The position numbers and the translations under genes were made by a program. Positions 16,228 to 41,099 of a stretch of DNA of 64,000 bases are shown here, piece by piece. Position 1 is the first letter of the stretch, and each line of letters begins with the position of its first letter. The notes beneath the pieces are model-generated. The model had not been told where the DNA came from. It made no database searches and saw only the letters and a program-made list of their open reading frames with translations. Source of the stretch: Pseudonocardiales bacterium (GTDB lineage Bacteria; Actinomycetota; Actinomycetes; Mycobacteriales; Pseudonocardiaceae); contig JAFATA010000076.1 in assembly GCA_019244165.1 (NCBI GenBank), forward strand, positions 1-64,000, written 5' to 3'.

Positions 16228-16341
16228 ATGGGTAAGCACGAGAAACCGCAACCGGAACCGGAACCGACCCCGACGGGCTCCAACCCTGCCCCGGGCCCGC
16301 CGCCGCCTGAGGGTCCGGGAGGCAAACACGCGAAGAAGTGA
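16228..16341 (+). CDS. 37-residue MGKH...GKH proline-rich peptide
   Basis: The ATG at 16228 encodes MGKHEKPQPEPEPTPTG followed by a Pro/Gly-rich stretch and GGKHAKK, with the stop at 16339-16341. It shares the MGKH start and a distal GKH with the 50-residue peptide at 30897, which is coupled to a PIMT-like methyltransferase. No modifying enzyme is adjacent here. The context is an intergenic region between the multicopper oxidase and the AAA ATPase. Coding status rests on the shared N-terminus and biased composition only. Confidence 0.5.
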   Translation: MGKHEKPQPEPEPTPTGSNPAPGPPPPEGPGGKHAKK

Positions 16342-28106: not shown

Positions 28107-28451
28107 CTACATGAGCCGACGAGGTCCTTCACATATCAACAACTTGCTCCCAATTGTACTGCGGATTAGAGAAGTGTCCATAAGTTGCCGTTTTGCCCTC
28201 CTGTTGTCGTCACCCAAGGAGACATCAATCATCACCGGCTGCTCGCATCCGAATACATATGCCACTGAAACGAGACAGCTCTCGACAGTTCCCGCAGCAA
28301 CCACACTCTTTGCGGCTAATCTTGCCATGTATGCACCGGACCGACCTACCTTCGATAGGTCTTTGCCGGAAAAAGATCCGCCTCCGTGGGGGACCAGCCC
28401 ACCATAGGTGTCTACCATCATCTTTCTCCCAGACAATCCTGTATCATTCAC
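28107..28451 (-). CDS. C-terminal part of a divergent SAM synthetase (MetK-like)
   Basis: The GTG at 28451 overlaps the TGA of the upstream ORF by four bases. The 114-residue product has strong MetK C-terminal motifs: [39 protein letters not shown] and [21 protein letters not shown]. It ends somewhat early and lacks the usual FGH/F-rich tail of housekeeping MetK. Joined to 28448-29113 it would make a shortened methionine adenosyltransferase of about 335 residues. Either a one-base deletion split one gene, or the two halves are made as coupled subunits. Base composition is clearly more AT-rich than the flanks. Confidence 0.72.
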
Positions 28452-29113
28452 GAAGCCCCATTATAAAATTTGACTGATTGTTGAAGAATACGCGCGGGAT
28501 CTGTGGCGGCTAGAACCTTCGACACGGCCTCGTTCATGATGACATGCTCAAGATCTTCAAGGTCGGTGTCAGCGTCGTGCTGGACACTAATGACCAAAGA
28601 CTCAACAGCTCCATTATTGACCGTGACCTGGACTTTTCCGTCAGGGCGAAACAAGTTTGTCTTCTCGCACAGAGAGTCGATCTCCCGTGCCATTGCATTC
28701 ACTACGTACTGACCAAATGGCAAATTGTTGTGAATACAATCACATGCGAATCCATACATGACTCCTTGGTCGCCAGCTGCCCCGATAGATACTGCCCGAC
28801 CGAGTTGCTCGGATTGCTTACCGATTACTTTTATTATTCGCAGCTCTTCGTTGTAGCCGATTTCACAATAGATAGACTTTGCAATGCTCGCGACGTCTAC
28901 CTTTGCCGACGAACTCACCTCCCCAGCAACCACTAGAGTGCTACCCGAGCCCATACACTCGACCGCCACTCTCGAACGCTCATCCTCACGTAGATACTCG
29001 TCGAGAATTGCGTCGCAGATCTGATCACACACCTTATCGGAGTGGCCCTTCAGAACGCTTTCGACCGTGTAACGCGAGTGCAACGACAGGTGAACTGGCA
29101 CTTCAGATCGCAT
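28448..29113 (-). CDS. N-terminal part of a divergent SAM synthetase (MetK-like)
   Basis: 221 residues from the ATG at 29113. It carries the MetK start [23 protein letters not shown] (canonical HPDK reads HSDK), the [15 protein letters not shown] hexapeptide region and [10 protein letters not shown], so both substrate-binding motifs are recognisable. It is far from a housekeeping MetK in sequence and composition. It overlaps the upstream membrane-protein gene by 11 bp, forming a two-function operon. Its own frame ends at 28448 within the region equivalent to the MetK centre, where about eight residues appear to be missing. Family assignment is firm; activity is uncertain. Confidence 0.75.
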
Positions 29114-29813
29114 AGTGCTGCTTCAGCTCCTCCCAGTCGGCGTTCATCTTTTCATTCAATTTTTCATACACTCGGTCACTCAGCGGCGATTTGTTGTAAG
29201 CAAGAGTGGTCTCGTATTCAAGCAATAGAATAATCCCGTCTTGCAACTCCTTGCCACCGCGAGGAGAGTAGAATCTGGAGGATGGGGAGTGCGATAATGT
29301 CGTCCCTAAGACTGAAGTAGGCGACAGCCAAGAAGGCGCCTGAATTGTCACGTTCTTGATAACGATCCTCCTTGTCATCTCCTTAGCTATATTATAGGCG
29401 AAGAAGCAGTTCTCAAAACAGTTCACGACGAGCTTGTAGTGCCCGGGAGGCATGGAATCGCTCGAGAAATAACCAGTCAAGTCCTTTCCTAGGAATTTGG
29501 AACCTAGGGAACTATCGATGAATCCTGCTCTGCGTAGTCGCGCAGTCGCCGAAGACACGAACGTTTCCGTGACAATGTTAATCACGTAGTAGGAGACAAT
29601 AAGTATGTAGTTTGCAAAGGCTACGGCTTCGACAGTTCCGGTCGGAGCACTCTGACCAATGCTGCCGTATTTCAAGAGTGGGGTTGCAATCGACAACGTC
29701 CCGACTGAGTACAGCAAGACTGTGCCCATTCGGCGCCATTTAGCCAGCTGTTCGAAACTAGTCTGGTATGGGAGGATTCTCCGGAGTAGTTGCTTGTTCG
29801 AAAGGTGAGCCAA
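29103..29813 (-). CDS. Two-TM membrane protein of unknown function, operonic with MetK-like gene
   Basis: 236 residues. Two hydrophobic segments lie at about 29-46 and 66-86. They are followed by a cytoplasmic-looking region with ARLRRAGFIDSSLGSKFLG, YKLVVNCFENCFFAYNIAKEM and a charged C-terminus ([17 protein letters not shown]). Small two- or four-TM proteins with a soluble tail of this size act as membrane effectors in several nucleotide-signalling defence systems; that link is inference from shape and context. The gene is AT-rich, starts the operon and overlaps the SAM-synthetase-like ORF. I do not recognise a named family. Confidence 0.7.
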   Translation of the reverse strand: MAHLSNKQLLRRILPYQTSFEQLAKWRRMGTVLLYSVGTLSIATPLLKYGSIGQSAPTGTVEAVAFANYILIVSYYVINIVTETFVSSATARLRRAGFIDSSLGSKFLGKDLTGYFSSDSMPPGHYKLVVNCFENCFFAYNIAKEMTRRIVIKNVTIQAPSWLSPTSVLGTTLSHSPSSRFYSPRGGKELQDGIILLLEYETTLAYNKSPLSDRVYEKLNEKMNADWEELKQHYAI

Positions 29814-30788: not shown

Positions 30789-30896
30789 ACGGGCAAGGTA
30801 TCCCATTCTGCTGGCACCTCCCGCCCGCGTTCGCGGTAGGGTCCTGACTCACCTGGGACCGCCGACAGGCGATCGCCGCGCGACGAGGGGGTGCCT

Positions 30897-31049
30897 GTGG
30901 GTAAGCACCACGATAGGGACAAGGAAGAGGACGAGAGAAAGCGGCAAAGCGACGGTCAGGTGCCAGCAGGTATCGGGGTGTCACCGAAGGAACCCCGAGG
31001 CAAGCACAGCGCGCCTGAGCCAGACGAGTCCGACGAGGACGAGGAGTGA
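30897..31049 (+). CDS. 50-residue charged peptide, candidate imiditide/pamtide precursor
   Basis: The GTG at 30897, 7 bp after a GAGGGG site, encodes a 50-residue peptide. It opens MGKHHDRDKEEDERKRQ, has a central SDGQVPAGIGV and ends with a strongly acidic tail (EPDESDEDEE). The only Asp-Gly pair is at residues 19-20, the preferred chemistry for aspartimide formation. Its TGA overlaps the GTG of a PIMT-family methyltransferase by four bases. Precursor-plus-methyltransferase pairs of this kind define the imiditide/pamtide RiPPs; that this peptide is the substrate is inferred from the context. Confidence 0.72.
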   Translation: MGKHHDRDKEEDERKRQSDGQVPAGIGVSPKEPRGKHSAPEPDESDEDEE

Positions 31050-32413
31050 CCGATCCGGCGGCCCTACGGCGCCGGATGGTCGATGACCTCACCACGGGTG
31101 GCTTCCTGGAACCCGGGTGGCGGGAGGCGTTTCTCGCCGTGCCCCGGCATGCGTTCATCCCGGACCTGGTGTGGCAGGAGCAGCGCCGTGACCTGGTGCC
31201 GTTTCACCGGGCTGATGACCCGAGCCGGTGGCTGCGGCTGGCGTATGCATCCCGGCAAGTCATGATCACTCAGGTCGATGACGGACACCCGGTGGGGCCA
31301 GGACTGATCGGAGACTGCATTTCTAGCTCGGCAAGCCAACCCAACGTCGTCGCCCTCATGCTGGCCGCCCTGGGAGCGCAGCCCGGGATGAGGGTCTGCG
31401 AGATCGGCACCGGCACCGGCTACAACGCCGCCCTGCTGGCGCAGCGGCTCGGAGCCGATCACGTGACCAGTATTGAGGTCGACCCCGAGGTGGCAACCCG
31501 GGCCCGCGCAGCGTTAGCCCGGACCGGGTTCGGCGCCGTCCTGGTCATCACCGGCGACGGTGCGCACGGATATCCGCCCCGAGCACCCTTTGACCGGGTC
31601 CTGGCGACGGCGGCGGTCCAGCGGGTTCCCTACGCGTGGGTGGCGCAGACCCGGCCGGGCGGGCGGGTGGTCACGCCGTGGGGAACCGCGTACCTCAACG
31701 GCGCCTTGCTCTCGCTCACCGTAGGTGAGGAGGGCACCGCGACCGGCCGCCTGGTGGACAACGTGGCGTTCATGTGGCTGCGCGACCAGCGCATCCCGCT
31801 GACCTGGGTTCGTGACTGCGTGTACGACGAAGACAACGCCGCGGTCAGCACGACCGACCTCCACCCCGCCCGGGTCACCGACGACTATCACGCAGCGTTG
31901 GCCATCGGGATCCTGGTGCCGGATTGCGAATACCGCTACTGCCAGGCCAGGGATGACTCCGGTGAGTACACCGTATGGTTTCTTGACCCGAACTCCCGAT
32001 CCTGGGCCAGCCTCGACTACCTTCCCGGCGCTGACACCCATGAAGTCAACCAGCTGGGTCCCCGCCGTCTCTGGGACGAAGTCGAAGCCGCCTACCGCTG
32101 GTGGGTCCGGGCCGGTAGCCCGACGGCGGAGCGGTGGCATTTCACCGTGACACCACAGTGTCAAGAAATCTATTTGGACCAAGAAATATCCCTGGACTCA
32201 CCGGGAGGAGCTATCGATCTCCACGGCGGGAACGCCCCTCGCGGTGGTGTTGTCTTGCACGATGCATCCGGTGGAGCCGCGGGTAAGCACCACCCCGCGT
32301 TTGAGGTTCGGGCCGAGCAGCTTGTTCTTGCGCACCTCGACGCCCGGCCAGTGGCGCAGGCTGACCGCCTGATCACCATTGGTCACACAGGTATTGCCGA
32401 GGAAGGTGATTGA
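31046..32413 (+). CDS. Protein-L-isoaspartate methyltransferase-like RiPP enzyme
   Basis: 455-residue frame with a GTG at 31046. Residues about 90-230 are a PIMT-type class I methyltransferase: SSSASQPNVVALML (substrate loop), RVCEIGTGTGYNAALL (SAM motif I), VTSIEVDPEVATRAR and FDRVLATAAVQRVP. A further 150 residues (WLRDQRIPLTW, EYTVWFLDPNSRSWASLDY, WRFTV-type end) match the C-terminal extension of PIMT homologues in fuscimiditide- and imiditide-type clusters. The last 75 residues, from about 32190, are antisense to the next gene and look non-homologous, so the natural end was probably near 32190. It likely methylates an Asp of the upstream peptide to form an aspartimide. Confidence 0.85.
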   Translation: MTDPAALRRRMVDDLTTGGFLEPGWREAFLAVPRHAFIPDLVWQEQRRDLVPFHRADDPSRWLRLAYASRQVMITQVDDGHPVGPGLIGDCISSSASQPNVVALMLAALGAQPGMRVCEIGTGTGYNAALLAQRLGADHVTSIEVDPEVATRARAALARTGFGAVLVITGDGAHGYPPRAPFDRVLATAAVQRVPYAWVAQTRPGGRVVTPWGTAYLNGALLSLTVGEEGTATGRLVDNVAFMWLRDQRIPLTWVRDCVYDEDNAAVSTTDLHPARVTDDYHAALAIGILVPDCEYRYCQARDDSGEYTVWFLDPNSRSWASLDYLPGADTHEVNQLGPRRLWDEVEAAYRWWVRAGSPTAERWHFTVTPQCQEIYLDQEISLDSPGGAIDLHGGNAPRGGVVLHDASGGAAGKHHPAFEVRAEQLVLAHLDARPVAQADRLITIGHTGIAEEGD

Positions 32414-33241
32414 CCGGGAGCCCGCCGGGGCCGCGCTCTTGCCGCTCTCGTCACCAGTGGCGATCAGGCAGTTCTCCCCGACGTTGCGGCAGGCGTTGCC
32501 GACGATCTCGACATCGAAGGTGGCGGGACGGCCGGCGTCGAAGGTCTGGAAGCAGTCGGGGTGGGCCGAACGCGCACCGGCGGAGATATCCTGGATCACG
32601 TTGCTGATGATCCGGTGACCGTTGCCGAAGAAGCGCACGCCATCGGCGTCACCGGCATCAGCCGGCCCACCAGCTGGCACTGTCGCAATCACCAGGTTCT
32701 CGCGTACGGTGATCCGCTGCCCGCTGAGGTAGATGCCGGTCGTGGCGACGTGCGTCACGGTGTTGGACTGCAGGGCGGAGTCGATGCAGGAAGCACAGAC
32801 GATCCCGCCCCGCTGAGTGTTTCGAATCGTATTCTTCTGCGCCACGATGCCGGTGCCCGCCAGCAGCAGCTCGCCACCACCGGTGATCGTGAAACCCTGA
32901 ATGACGACGTGATCGGCGAGGATGTGGAACTGGTGAACGACGGTGTGCCCATCGGAGACGAGGCTGATCGGCGCGTTGGTGGTGCCAGAGCGGGTCATTG
33001 TCAGATCCACATCGGCGAGGTCAGCACCGACAAAGCACAGCATGTCTCCCGGAACGGCAGCGGGGAGCGCGGCGCGGGCGTCCGCCACGCTGCGGATGGT
33101 GCGGGTGCAGGGTGCTCCATCTGCGGAGACACCGGCGGCGGCAACGCCGGTGGTGAGCAACCCGAGACCCAGCAGCGCCACACCACACACTGACATCGTG
33201 CGGGTGAGCGGTGTCACCGATCCTGAGCCGAAGACGCGCAT
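32198..33241 (-). CDS. Secreted right-handed parallel beta-helix protein
   Basis: 347 residues from the ATG at 33241. A signal peptide is visible (SVCGVALLGLGLLTTGVAAAG). The mature part has many short repeats of the pectate-lyase/NosD-type beta helix (HVVIQGFTITGGG, GIVAQKNTIRNTQRGGI, ALQSNTVTHVATTGIYL, VEIVGNACRNVGENC). Paired cysteines suggest disulfides. It is likely an extracellular polysaccharide-binding or -cleaving protein; no lyase catalytic set can be assigned. Its 3' end overlaps the methyltransferase frame by 216 bp on the opposite strand. Confidence 0.82.
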   Translation of the reverse strand: MRVFGSGSVTPLTRTMSVCGVALLGLGLLTTGVAAAGVSADGAPCTRTIRSVADARAALPAAVPGDMLCFVGADLADVDLTMTRSGTTNAPISLVSDGHTVVHQFHILADHVVIQGFTITGGGELLLAGTGIVAQKNTIRNTQRGGIVCASCIDSALQSNTVTHVATTGIYLSGQRITVRENLVIATVPAGGPADAGDADGVRFFGNGHRIISNVIQDISAGARSAHPDCFQTFDAGRPATFDVEIVGNACRNVGENCLIATGDESGKSAAPAGSRSITFLGNTCVTNGDQAVSLRHWPGVEVRKNKLLGPNLKRGVVLTRGSTGCIVQDNTTARGVPAVEIDSSSR

Positions 33242-33311
33242 TGCTACAAGGGTAACGCTCAGTGCGGCCTGAATTACTCTCAGCGAGCTCAAGACACGGG
33301 AGGGTGTCGTG

Positions 33312-35297
33312 ATGGCCAAGCCTTCTGAGGCGTGCGCCGGGGTCGACGTCGGGGGCACGTTCACCGATGTCGTGGTGCATGCCCCCGGTCACCGGCCCCG
33401 GGCGGTGAAAGTGCCGACCACCCCGGACAACCAGGCGGTGGGAGTGCAACGAGGTGTCGAGCACGCCTGGCCGGGTGCGCCATTGCGGCTGCTGCCGCAT
33501 GGCACCACCACGGCCACCAACGCGGTGCTGCAACGCACCCTGGCCCGGACCGTCTTGGTGACCACCGACGGGTTCGCCGATGTGCTGCAGATCGCCCGGC
33601 AAGACCGGCCCGCGCTCTATGACCTGACCGTCACCCGTCCCGCACCACTCGTGAGCCACGAGCAGGTGGTGACCGTCCGCGAGCGGATGAGCCCGCAGGG
33701 CACGGCGGTCATTGCGCTGAGCGAGGAGGAGATCGACCGGGTGGTGCGCCAGGTGCAGCGCCTGGAACCGGAGTCGGTGGCGGTGAGCTTGCTGTTCAGC
33801 TACGCGGATGAGGCGCACGAGCGGCGGCTGTGCGCGGCGTTGCGCAGCCTTCAAGTGCCTATTACCCGGTCCAGCGCGCTGCTGGCGGAGTTCCGCGAGT
33901 TCGAGCGGACCTCCACGTGCGTGCTCAACGCCGCCCTGGCACCCGTGATGCACCGCTACCTGTCGCACCTGACGGCCCGGCTGCCGGGCCCGACGATCAC
34001 TGTGATGACCTCGGGCGGCGGCACCGCGGGCGTCGATTTCGTGGCCGATGCCCCCGTGCACACGCTGCTGTCGGGACCCGCCGCCGGTGTCGTCGCGGCG
34101 GGTGCCGTGGCGCGCTGCGCCGGCTTTGAGCACGCGATCGCCTTCGACATGGGCGGCACGTCCACCGACGTGTGCCTGATCAGGAATGGTCAGCCCGAGG
34201 TGTCCACGTCCGCGCAGATCGCCGGGTTGCCGTTTCGCACCCCGGCGGTCGGGATCCACACCGTGGGCGCGGGCGGCGGGTCGATCGCCTGGGTGGACGC
34301 CGGTGGTGCGCTGCGGGTCGGCCCGGCCTCGGCGGGTGCCGATCCCGGCCCAGCCTGCTACGGGTTAGGGGGCAGCGCGCCGACGGTCACCGACGCGCAC
34401 TGCGTGCTGGGCCATCTCGATCCGGACCGGGAGCTGGGCCCAGCAGATGGCACAGGGCTGCGCTTGGACGTCGAGGCGGCCGCCCGTGCCATCGGCACGC
34501 TCCCGGAGCCGGCCGGGGGGGCACTCGGGATCCTCACGGTGGTGCGAGCCACGATGGCGCGCGCCCTGCGCAGAGTCAGCACCGAGCGCGGCGTCGATCC
34601 GGCGCACTTGGCGCTGGTCGCCTACGGTGGCGCCGGCCCGCTGCACGCCAGCGCCCTGGCCCGCGAGCTGGGCTGCCGCGCGGTGGTGGTGCCGCCGACA
34701 CCGGGAGTGCTCAGCGCGCTGGGCCTGCTGCTCGCCCCGGCCCGCTATGAGGCATCCCGGACGGTGATGGCGCCGGCCGGAGACGATCTCACCGACACCT
34801 GGCAGGCACTGGAGACCCAGGCCCGCGACGAGCTTCGGCACCAGGGGGTGACCGGGGAGGTCACCCTGTCCCGAGTTGCCGACGCCCGCTACGCCGGCCA
34901 GTCCCACGAGCTGCGCCTTGCTGTCCCCAATCCCGACGCCGGGGCGGACCTGGCGCCGTTGCTGCACCGCGCGCACCGGCAGGCCTACGGCTACGCCGTC
35001 CCCGACGAGCCCGTCACCATCGTCACGCTGCGGGTGGTGGCGCGGGGCGAACCGATCCTGGCGCAGCCACCGCAGGACTGGGATTTGGGCCAACCCGCGC
35101 CGGAGCGGTCTCGCGAGATCGGCCTGGCGGGCCAGACCGTGACGGCCCGGGTGGTGTCCCGGGCGGGGCTGGTGGCCGGTGACGAGGTCGGCGGCCCAGC
35201 GGTGATCGAGCAGTCGGACACCACCACGCTGCTCGCCCCCGATGAGGTCGCCGTGGTGGATGAGGCCGGCAACCTGGTGGTGCGCCTGCCTGGCTAG
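33312..35297 (+). CDS. hyuA: Hydantoinase A/oxoprolinase family protein
   Basis: 661 residues from the ATG at 33312 (a GTG precedes it directly). N-terminal ASKHA-type phosphate motifs: [15 protein letters not shown], and later [14 protein letters not shown] hydantoinase/oxoprolinase core follows with [23 protein letters not shown] and [17 protein letters not shown]. HyuA works with HyuB in ATP-dependent hydrolysis of hydantoins, 5-oxoproline or related cyclic amides. hyuB is found at 36825, but a secreted amidase and a palindromic element lie between. The substrate is not predictable. Confidence 0.92.
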
Positions 35298-38834: not shown

Positions 38835-41099
38835 ATGAGCGACACGAGAGCCGCGCTGCTGGTCGGCTGCTCCAAGTACGGACCCGACTTCCGCCAGCTG
38901 CCGGCGCTAGCCCGGGACATCGACGCGTTGAAATGCGTGCTCAAAGACCCGACGATTGGTGATTTCACGGTAGCCCCCCCACTGCGCAATGAGCAGTCGG
39001 GGACGGTTAAGCAGCAGATAGAGAAATTCTTCGCCGACCGCAAGCCGGATGATCTGTTGCTGCTCTACTTCTCGTGCCATGGGATTCAGGATGGACGAGG
39101 GCGGCTGCACCTCGTGGCAGCCGATACCAAAAAGCAGCGGCTGGGTTCGACAGGGATCGCGGCACGCTGGGTCAAGGAGCAGATGGATCATAGCCGCTCG
39201 CAACGCATCGTGTTGCTGCTTGACTGCTGCTACGGCGGAGCGTTCACCAGGGGCCCGATGCACAGAAGTGCCGACCCCGAGGAAATCATTGAGCAGCTCG
39301 GTGGCCGGGGCCGCGTGGTCATCACCGCGTCAGACACGATGGAGCTTGCCTACGGGTCGGAATTCACCAATGCCGTGGTCCACGGTTTGCAGACCGGGGC
39401 CGCTGACCTCGACGGCGACGGCCGGGTATCGGTCAATGAATTGTATCGCTACGTGTACGACCAGGTCCAGCGGAACGCGCCAGACCAAACGCCAACCATG
39501 TCGGCGGATGGGGTGCGTGGCGAACTCTATCTGGCAAAGAATCCCCATGCGCTAATGCCGCTGCCGGCCGAGCTCGAAGGAGTCTTAGCAAGCGAGAGTG
39601 CGTGGAAGCGATTGTGGGCAGTCGACGGTTTACAGCGTCTGCTGGCCAGTGACCACCCGGAAGGGCAGAAACGCACGGCGCGACAAGCCTTAGTCCGGTT
39701 ACGTGACGACGGCACTGACCCTGACGTTCGGGCGGCCGCCAGCGAGGCGTTGCCCGCAGTTTCCCCGCGACCTGACATCACAGATCGTCGACGTCCACAC
39801 TATCACCGGCTGGTGGGGGCCGGTCTGGCGTTGGCGGTGGTGCTGGCGTTGATTATTGCGTCAATTCTCATACCTAGACCACCTCCCACATCTGAGGCGT
39901 GCTCGCCGATCACCAAACCCGCCGACGGTACCCTCTCCTTCGGGACGTTATTCCCGAAGACCGGGGACTTCGACTATACGGGTCCAGCATTTGACGCTGG
40001 CGTGCAATTGGCGATGAAGGACATCAAGGACGCCGGCGGCATCCCTGGCATCCAGGTGAAGCTCGATGACACCAGCCAGCGTGACGAGGGCAACCCTTCC
40101 GCTGACACCGCCAGCCAGTCGGTTGACGCGCTGCTTTCCGGCAACGTCGATGTGATCATTGGTCCCGCGACGTCGGCGGTGGCCCTCAAGGTGATCGACA
40201 AGGTCACCTGCGCAGGTGTGATCATGTTTTCACCCGCGAACACTTCGCCGGTGTTCACCACCTACCCCAGCCATGGGCTTTACTTCCGCACCGCGCCGCC
40301 AGACACGCTCGAGGGCCCCGTGCTCGGCAAGCTCGTCGTCGATGACGGCAATTCGACGGCGGTGGTGATGTCGCGCGACGACGTGTACGGCAACTACATG
40401 CGGGAGGCGACCGCAAAAGCGATCCAGAAATTCGGGGGTCGGGTACTCGACTCCTTTTCTTACGACCCGAACACACGCGACTACGACAAGGAAGTTCAGC
40501 GAATCAAAGCCAAGAACCCCGACGCGATCGTCCTGATTAGCTTCAACGAGGACGCCTCTATCCTGACCAAAATGATCAAGGAAGGTCTTGGTCCGAGGAA
40601 CAAACGAGTGTACGACCCTAATATGGCCAGCGTCTTGGCCGGCGAGGTCAACCCCCGGAACCCGGGCGTCTTGGCCGGCATGAAGGGAACCTCACGGTAT
40701 GCTGGAGACGAGGCCTTTGTGAAGCGGCTACGGGAGATCAGTCCTGAACCACTCCAGGACCCGACCTACGCCGCGCAGGCCTACGACGCGGTGATAATCA
40801 CCGCACTGGCGGCAGCGGTCGCCGGCACGGACGCACCCGCCGTCGTCGCGAAAGACATCAACGGCGTGACGAGGGCCGGCGAGAAATGCACCAGCTTTGC
40901 CGCCTGCATGGCGCTGGTAAAAGACCACAAGGACATCGCCTACGTCGGAGCTTCCGGACCGCTGGAGTTCACCGATCATGGTGAGCCCAGCACGGACACC
41001 TACGTTATCAGCGAAATCCAACCCGACGGCACGGTCAAGCCCCTCAAGATCGTGAGGGCCAACTCTCCAGAGTATCCACCAAGCGGGATTCACCAGTGA
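38835..41099 (+). CDS. Membrane-spanning caspase with extracellular periplasmic-binding-protein domain
   Basis: 754 residues. Residues 1-235 are a caspase (peptidase C14) with the dyad His82 (LYFSCHGIQD) and Cys132 (LLLDCCYGG). Residues 245-310 are helical, HEAT-like. A single TM lies at about 327-347 (VGAGLALAVVLALIIASIL). Residues 366-754 are a LivJ-type periplasmic binding protein fold (GTLFPKTGDFDYTG, GVQLAMKDIKDAGG, IIGPATSAVALKVI, AQAYDAVIITALA). No N-terminal signal peptide is present, so the caspase should be inside and the binding domain outside. This is the plan of a receptor whose ligand controls an intracellular protease. EACC1 is the upstream partner. A 64-bp palindrome lies downstream. 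Confidence 0.9.
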   Translation: MSDTRAALLVGCSKYGPDFRQLPALARDIDALKCVLKDPTIGDFTVAPPLRNEQSGTVKQQIEKFFADRKPDDLLLLYFSCHGIQDGRGRLHLVAADTKKQRLGSTGIAARWVKEQMDHSRSQRIVLLLDCCYGGAFTRGPMHRSADPEEIIEQLGGRGRVVITASDTMELAYGSEFTNAVVHGLQTGAADLDGDGRVSVNELYRYVYDQVQRNAPDQTPTMSADGVRGELYLAKNPHALMPLPAELEGVLASESAWKRLWAVDGLQRLLASDHPEGQKRTARQALVRLRDDGTDPDVRAAASEALPAVSPRPDITDRRRPHYHRLVGAGLALAVVLALIIASILIPRPPPTSEACSPITKPADGTLSFGTLFPKTGDFDYTGPAFDAGVQLAMKDIKDAGGIPGIQVKLDDTSQRDEGNPSADTASQSVDALLSGNVDVIIGPATSAVALKVIDKVTCAGVIMFSPANTSPVFTTYPSHGLYFRTAPPDTLEGPVLGKLVVDDGNSTAVVMSRDDVYGNYMREATAKAIQKFGGRVLDSFSYDPNTRDYDKEVQRIKAKNPDAIVLISFNEDASILTKMIKEGLGPRNKRVYDPNMASVLAGEVNPRNPGVLAGMKGTSRYAGDEAFVKRLREISPEPLQDPTYAAQAYDAVIITALAAAVAGTDAPAVVAKDINGVTRAGEKCTSFAACMALVKDHKDIAYVGASGPLEFTDHGEPSTDTYVISEIQPDGTVKPLKIVRANSPEYPPSGIHQ

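Follow-up and report, generated by a model that had tools for sequence, protein, structure and literature searches.

A short open reading frame that overlaps the start of a PIMT-like methyltransferase gene raises two questions: what does the enzyme make of the peptide, and which property of the product is kept by selection? The locus lies in a stretch of 64,000 nucleotides (the window) from a Pseudonocardiales bacterium. The genome (G000) is a 3.74 Mb assembly of 85 contigs, 88% complete with 4.4% contamination, and its nearest named relatives are Pseudonocardiales MAGs.

The peptide gene and its methyltransferase

The pair and its motifs are located as follows.

30886 to 30891, plus strand: AGGGGG, a ribosome-binding-like site 5 nt 5' of the peptide start, read from the sequence
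30897 to 31049, plus strand: precursor peptide gene (50 aa) of the imiditide / type I pamtide type, supported by profile, alignment and dN<dS against two orthologues
30951 to 30956, plus strand: GAC GGT codons of D19-G20, the predicted methylation and aspartimide site (AAC GGT in orthologues L084 and L085)
30999 to 31007, plus strand: GKH, the second conserved motif (G35-K36-H37)
31046 to 32413, plus strand: PIMT-like methyltransferase (PAMT) ORF of 455 aa, its family domain ending near 32180, supported by TIGR04188, PCMT and an AlphaFold2 model
32102 to 32122, plus strand: WxxxGxP motif of the C-terminal domain (W353-V-R-A-G-S-P359), with W353 and P359 invariant in 37 rows

The peptide ORF starts with GTG, and its product is MGKHHDRDKEEDERKRQSDGQVPAGIGVSPKEPRGKHSAPEPDESDEDEE. 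An in-frame GTG at 30891 is an alternative candidate start; position 30897 is favoured because the MGKH N-terminus is conserved. The peptide stop overlaps the GTG start of the methyltransferase at 31046-31049 (GTGA). The 50-aa product contains 14% Asp, 10% Gly and 10% Pro, lacks Cys, and is charged at both ends, with MGKH at the N-terminus and GKH plus an acidic tail at the C-terminus. The GKH motif is presumed to be part of a C-terminal recognition region. The initial annotation had described a good ribosome site, the GTGA overlap and one Asp-Gly pair, and all three are present, the single Asp-Gly being D19-G20. It had also placed the end of the unit at 32190, where there is no stop; the methyltransferase frame extends to 32413.

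The enzyme matches NCBIfam TIGR04188, the ATP-grasp system methyltransferase (E 1e-98, 331 bits). This is below the cut-off of 380 bits, which most relatives in the genus also miss and which five exceed among the matches listed. Pfam PCMT matches at 2e-33, ending at residue 245, and the family domain as a whole ends at about residue 374-379 (about 32180). In an AlphaFold2 model of residues 1-385 (mean pLDDT 94.4, pTM 0.91), the chain is ordered to about residue 379, and residues 380-385 are the only stretch with a pLDDT below 50. Over its full length, the model is matched best in the PDB by 1DL5, a PIMT of Thermotoga maritima that has a C-terminal extension. The WxxxGxP motif is named for RiPP-associated PIMTs in section 11 of PMC13001092. 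The window enzyme carries both this motif and the C-terminal extension of more than 100 aa that characterize PAMTs. That it is a PIMT homologue with a C-terminal extension is supported by the PCMT match to residue 245, the motif and a predicted fold resembling 1DL5. Past the family domain, the frame continues on the strand opposite the 3' end of a beta-helix gene. About 76 C-terminal residues are probably a non-native read-through tail, so the window copy of the enzyme could be impaired.

On the window's contig (C25), no match was found to the ATP-grasp family TIGR04187, LANC_like or Lant_dehydr_N, all of which are present elsewhere in the genome. The reported absence of a nearby ATP-grasp or LanB/LanM enzyme thus stands. 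The precursor gene adjoins the PAMT gene with no other primary enzyme from the three families searched on the contig, and its product has the charged termini of the class. D19-G20 provides the conserved site for the window peptide, with Asn in its place in the nearest intact orthologues. Judged from its genes and motifs, the locus is an imiditide / type I pamtide pair. Characterised imiditide pairs are described as acting alone on linear peptides, methylating Asp (PMC13001092, PMC10787088), and the window methyltransferase, which had been put forward as the sole modifying enzyme, bears the features of these lone-acting enzymes. Type I precursors average about 45 aa with 17.3% Gly, 16.8% Pro and 10.2% Asp according to PMC10787088; the Gly and Pro contents of the window peptide are below these averages of about 17%.

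The closest characterised systems are SpaA-SpaM of Streptomyces sparsogenes and NmaA-NmaM of Nonomuraea maritima. They share with the window a two-gene layout, a linear charged peptide (about 45 aa), a lone PIMT homologue with a C-terminal domain, one conserved acidic site beside Gly/Pro, and charged ends. The window peptide differs in being richer in Glu, Lys and Arg and poorer in Gly and Pro, and in belonging to an MGKH...[D/N]G...GGKH subfamily. Its enzyme falls in a clade where the other scorable precursors are Asn-Gly. A pair recovered from S. sparsogenes (L155) is probably SpaA-SpaM itself, though the strain number differs from that of the paper. The graspimiditides (fuscimiditide, amycolimiditide) have a homologous methyltransferase (TIGR04188) beside an ATP-grasp enzyme, whereas the window contig has no ATP-grasp match and its precursor is linear. 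Besides the pairs, G000 holds about 16 loci with ATP-grasp (TIGR04187) and methyltransferase genes, counted by eye, and lanthipeptide dehydratase matches, which makes for a heavy complement of such clusters in an assembly of 3.7 Mb. Cysimiditides, or type II pamtides (FcaA-FcaM), are likewise two-gene units with a homologous enzyme; the window peptide, having no Cys, lacks their CxxCxGxG zinc ribbon. Repair PIMTs (Escherichia coli Pcm; T. maritima 1DL5) have the same catalytic fold, but the window enzyme is paired with a dedicated peptide.

Recurrence of the peptide and the borders of the cassette

The window enzyme has 64 matches in its own genome, many of them preceded by a peptide of the same family. 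Peptides of the form MGKH...[D/N]G...GGKH occur upstream of many homologues in this genome, in the genus, in Actinomadura and in Nocardiopsis, which is the recurrence that the initial annotation had called for as a check and whose absence it had named as refuting. A profile built from 11 seed peptides was run on the ORFs upstream of 160 distinct methyltransferases. It scored at least 20 bits upstream of 46 of them (35 of 149 when non-seeds alone are counted), against a best score of 13.5 bits for the 11,014 remaining small ORFs of those loci. The remaining 114 of the 149 non-seed enzymes, with scores below 20 bits, include graspetide-type enzymes preceded by ATP-grasp and pairs with other peptide subfamilies. 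Within the genome of the window, 12 of the 13 profile matches that abut an enzyme come from seed loci of profile A1, so this count is largely by construction.

In an alignment of 23 peptides, H4, G35 and H37 never vary, and M1, G20 and P33 hardly do. In all 13 close peptide pairs compared, dN is lower than dS (0.16 vs 2.43 for the window and L084; 0.06 vs 0.50 for L018 and L178); the 13 comparisons reuse some sequences, and dS approaches saturation in part of them. These substitution patterns indicate that the peptide is under purifying selection.

A six-frame search of the family with the peptide profile, with 24 candidates scored per genome, found the peptide in 7 of 297 genomes and 3 of 46 genera (E 0.001). 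In the genus, at E 0.01, it was found in 7 of 11 genomes, with 14 matches in G000, 12 in G006 and at most 3 in the rest. Searches of the class (394 genomes) and the order (397 genomes), which scored 17-18 first-look candidates per genome, gave marginal matches outside the genus (best E 1.2e-3 and 6.9e-4, respectively). Seven further profile matches (window 16228, L242-L246 and L248) include one with an intact enzyme (L248), three with a truncated, frameshifted or remnant enzyme, and three in which none was seen. The copy in the window is an orphan.

16228 to 16341, plus strand: degenerate copy of the peptide, MGKHEKPQPEPEPTPTGSNPAPGPPPPEGPGGKHAKK, that lacks both a methyltransferase and [D/N]G, found by the peptide profile

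This orphan copy adjoins an AAA_16 ATPase gene. In L009 and L168, the upstream ORFs carry a GGKH/GGRH motif before the DG or DA site, as if the halves of the peptide were permuted.

The pair behaves as a movable cassette, as judged from locus comparison. The window from 26 to 40 kb was compared with three orthologous loci, and the sole stretch shared with them runs from 30893/30897 (30999 in L086) to 32154/32164; the fetched flanks are otherwise without matches at 1e-8. The 3' border and the neighbouring gene are as follows.

32165 to 32201, no strand: 3' cassette junction, where homology to the pair ends (32154-32164) and pair-free beta-helix homology begins (32201-32202), from locus comparison
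32198 to 33364, minus strand: convergent beta-helix gene, shorter than its homologues by a few codons at its junction end, from locus comparison

Three genomes of the genus (L239, L240 and L241) hold the beta-helix gene without an adjoining pair, and their copies retain a C-terminal tail that is missing from the window copy. L239 also has, next to this gene, a homologue of the weakly PIN-like gene found beside the pair in the window, and this locus is therefore close to an unoccupied site. The event seems also to have cost the enzyme its native stop.

Several other features were observed in and around these loci. In G006, an Nramp-type transporter ORF (L199 7396-9393, minus strand) ends in the second half of a precursor peptide and adjoins the 82% orthologue of the window enzyme. 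A low-GC island at 28448-29813 (minus strand; GC 0.49-0.53 vs 0.61-0.76 around it) consists of two overlapping genes. One encodes a 4TM effector-like protein (PADLOC PDLC00726, 1.7e-37), and the other a SAM synthetase with the N and central domains and no C-terminal domain match. This island is possibly an unrecognised defence-type operon. A gene at 38835-41099 (plus strand) encodes a caspase of the EACC1-associated type fused to a periplasmic-binding-protein domain. Short stretches of the form RELDTTD...NVG.VEFT, or its reverse strand, recur near 26.5 kb and 35.3 kb and in L023 and L040; they are perhaps an interspersed repeat.

Alternation of Asp and Asn at residue 19

The proposed target, Asp19, holds for the window, which has D19-G20, and fails as a fixed residue, since the nearest intact orthologues carry Asn. 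The site reads SDGQVP in the window, vs SNGQVP in L084 (enzyme identity 79%) and GNGQVP in L085 (78%); the codons are GAC GGT CAG in the window and AAC GGT CAG in the orthologues. The nearest orthologue of all (L086/L199, 82%) is unscorable for Asp or Asn because its peptide is broken. Across the 23 aligned peptides, residue 19 is the sole column that is Asp or Asn in every row, with 1 Asp and 9 Asn in the clade of the window (10 rows) and Asp in all 13 other rows. A small residue follows the site in all 23 rows (Gly, or Ala in two Asp-type rows), and all other Asp-rich columns vary. The nine Asn-type peptides hold 12 Asn in total, nine of which are at the site.

In an IQ-TREE phylogeny of 47 methyltransferases, labelled 9 Asn, 34 Asp (two of them Asp-Ala) and 4 unlabelled, all nine Asn-Gly pairs fall in one clade of 12 rows (98/94). 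This clade is made up of the nine Asn types, the window and two unscorable rows. The window is nested in a 4-row set (99/100) whose other two scorable members are Asn, and the fewest Asp/Asn changes on the tree are two. An earlier tree of 48 rows with graspetide-type outgroups gave 98/95 and also two changes; it shares most of its rows with the 47-row tree and is not independent of it. Site states were set by eye for L008, L009, L059, L060, L098, L101 and L106. L198/L020, which is frameshifted, and L179 were left out of the tree. Also outside it are L242, an Asn type with an enzyme remnant, and L246, an Asn type with a frameshifted enzyme whose profile-detected Asn-Gly peptide resembles that of L173, which is in a different clade. 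As Asp is the state outside the clade, the changes would be from Asp to Asn once and then from Asn back to Asp in the lineage of the window. The pair itself adds a member to a class already known; what is new here is that Asp and Asn alternate, the window copy being the revertant. The enzymes of the Asn and Asp groups show diagnostic differences at four positions (186, 236, 313 and 325), and 58 enzyme columns are near-invariant over both groups, hence by definition kept in the Asn clade.

Asn-Gly is the fastest-deamidating pair. Asn deamidates via a succinimide, which is the aspartimide group, to isoAsp and Asp, and the characterised RiPP PIMTs OlvSA, ThfM and AmdM methylate isoAsp too (both from PMC13001092). 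Because Asn-Gly deamidates via the same succinimide, the product under selection would seem to be the ring or isoAsp, and an Asn precursor could reach this product without the first methylation. The restriction of the site to two ring-capable residues followed by a small residue likewise suggests selection on the ring or isoAsp. In the text of PMC10787088 and PMC13001092, as far as consulted, there is no mention of Asn at a precursor target site, which the supplementary lists may tabulate, and no Asn precursors are reported in the titles and abstract openings of the literature matches listed. A tentative reading, which we hold as a possibility rather than an expectation, is that in the Asn lineages the Asn-Gly ring would form spontaneously, with the PIMT acting downstream on isoAsp as a slow timer with reset, and that the window would be a reversion to the Asp route.

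It is unlikely, in our view, that residue 19 has ceased to be modified in the Asn lineages and that the enzyme targets another Asp, with D19 of the window incidental. Such an account would accord with the description of characterised imiditide enzymes as Asp-methylating and with the retention of Asp8 in 9 of 10 and Asp6 in 6 of 10 peptides of the window's clade. A free site should drift, however, yet position 19 is only ever Asp or Asn and is always followed by a small residue, and none of the other Asp-rich columns is constant across all 23 peptides. Asp8 precedes a charged or polar residue, which is a poor place for ring formation. Another target Asp was considered and set aside, there being no second Asp column kept over the 23 rows. 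Loss of enzyme function in the Asn clade was also set aside on the 58 near-invariant columns, which are kept there by the definition of that set and fall short of proof of activity.

Quite improbable is that the peptide serves as an activator, anchor or regulatory partner, the real substrate of the methyltransferase being another protein. In favour of a partner role are the high charge of the peptide, the existence of orphan peptides and broken enzymes, and the lack of a recognised transporter among the scanned neighbouring proteins, which include the product of a caspase-domain gene 6.4 kb downstream. Against this, the most constrained interior position is the aspartimide-prone [D/N]-G, and for two homologous pairs published work has established that the peptide is the substrate of the enzyme.

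Very improbable is that the enzyme of the Asn lineages N-methylates the Asn side chain, giving a product that differs from aspartimide: although gamma-N-methyl-asparagine occurs in nature and Asn is kept alongside the same near-invariant enzyme columns, the characterised members modify a carboxylate, and an amide nitrogen would be another kind of acceptor. That the small ORF is a chance ORF beside an ordinary protein-repair PIMT, as could be feared in a GC-rich region where spurious ORFs are common, is extremely improbable, and for the family refuted, in view of the separation of the profile scores from the 11,014 background ORFs, dN<dS in every close pair, and the C-terminal domain, which is absent from repair PIMTs of the E. 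coli type.

Proposed pathway and phage copies

We consider it probable that the locus is an imiditide / type I pamtide unit in which Asp19 is converted to aspartimide and then to isoAsp, and in which the product rather than the residue is conserved. The peptide would be translated from its own start and the methyltransferase probably by coupling through the GTGA overlap. The enzyme would bind the linear charged peptide, probably via MGKH at its N-terminus and GKH with the acidic residues at its C-terminus. By analogy with SpaA-SpaM and NmaA-NmaM, the side-chain carboxylate of Asp19 would then be methylated. As in characterised relatives, the amide of Gly20 would attack the ester to give aspartimide, which would hydrolyse mostly to isoaspartate. 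In the Asn-Gly sister lineages, we infer that deamidation could close the same ring unaided and that the resulting isoAsp/Asp would be what the enzyme acts on. The conserved product would be aspartimide/isoAsp and not the encoded residue, and the window copy would have gone back from Asn to Asp.

Homologues of the enzyme are also carried by phages. Eight Streptomyces phage records, which represent the five phages PapayaSalad, Ididsumtinwong, Bioscum, Austintatious and Alderaan, hold a homologue with 41-44% identity over 80-94% of the query.

L264 3732-5137 (MK305888.1), also L265 and L266: Streptomyces phage pair beside a DUF5753 repressor and lysis genes

A peptide gene ends 8 nt before the phage enzyme in all three phages examined. 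From an inner ATG, the peptide of Austintatious and PapayaSalad reads MSGKHGGGSGSGSGGSQQDDSSSGRQHGGGGSETSGGNSSDGSGPSKK; that of Alderaan is a close variant. In Austintatious, gp24-gp27 are transcribed leftward and sit between the lysis genes and gp28, an HTH protein with DUF5753 (E 3.6e-44); gp29 apart, the genome otherwise runs rightward. Two loci from Streptomyces genomes (L119 and L125) are prophages of this kind, with endolysin identities of 97 and 93% and tail protein identities of 98 and 89%. Predicted viral contigs contributed 38 loci, and a type I-like peptide ORF was seen by eye upstream in 16 of the 37 examined; 2 of these 16 may duplicate isolated phages, and such contigs can include host flanks. 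Among the literature matches listed, none deals with these phages or with pairs carried by phages. In the Saccharomonospora phage PIS 136, a methyltransferase annotated in two pieces (L267 3917-4638, JX006077.1) adjoins HTH_31 and DUF397 genes.

The association with regulators extends to bacterial genomes. An XRE-DUF5753 gene was found in the fetched stretch of 24 of 47 pair loci, from 47 named genomes of other genera (L110 not counted), vs 2.05 expected from a genome-wide density of one such gene per 250 kb. The count should be conservative, since the loci were searched by tblastn with three queries and the genomes by HMM. DUF397/DUF5753 genes had already been noted beside graspetide groups 11 and 13 (PMC13097080). 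In the window's own genome, which has 39 DUF5753 matches, only 2 of 15 pairs lie within 5 kb of one, about as the density predicts; these are the window pair (4.7 kb) and a pair on contig C59 (0.4 kb). The position of the phage pairs next to a repressor weakly suggests an intracellular or host-modulating role rather than that of an exported antibiotic.

If this account is true, evolution keeps aspartimide/isoAsp and not the residue that gives rise to it, and the ring itself would be the functional product. The Asp/Asn clade would separate an essential methyl-ester or enzyme step from an essential ring or isoAsp, which Asp-only systems cannot do. Linking aspartimidylated RiPPs to biological function is described as the field's bigger challenge in a 2026 review (PMC13001092). 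Isolated Streptomyces phages with the pair beside a repressor would make it possible to look for a phenotype by genetics.
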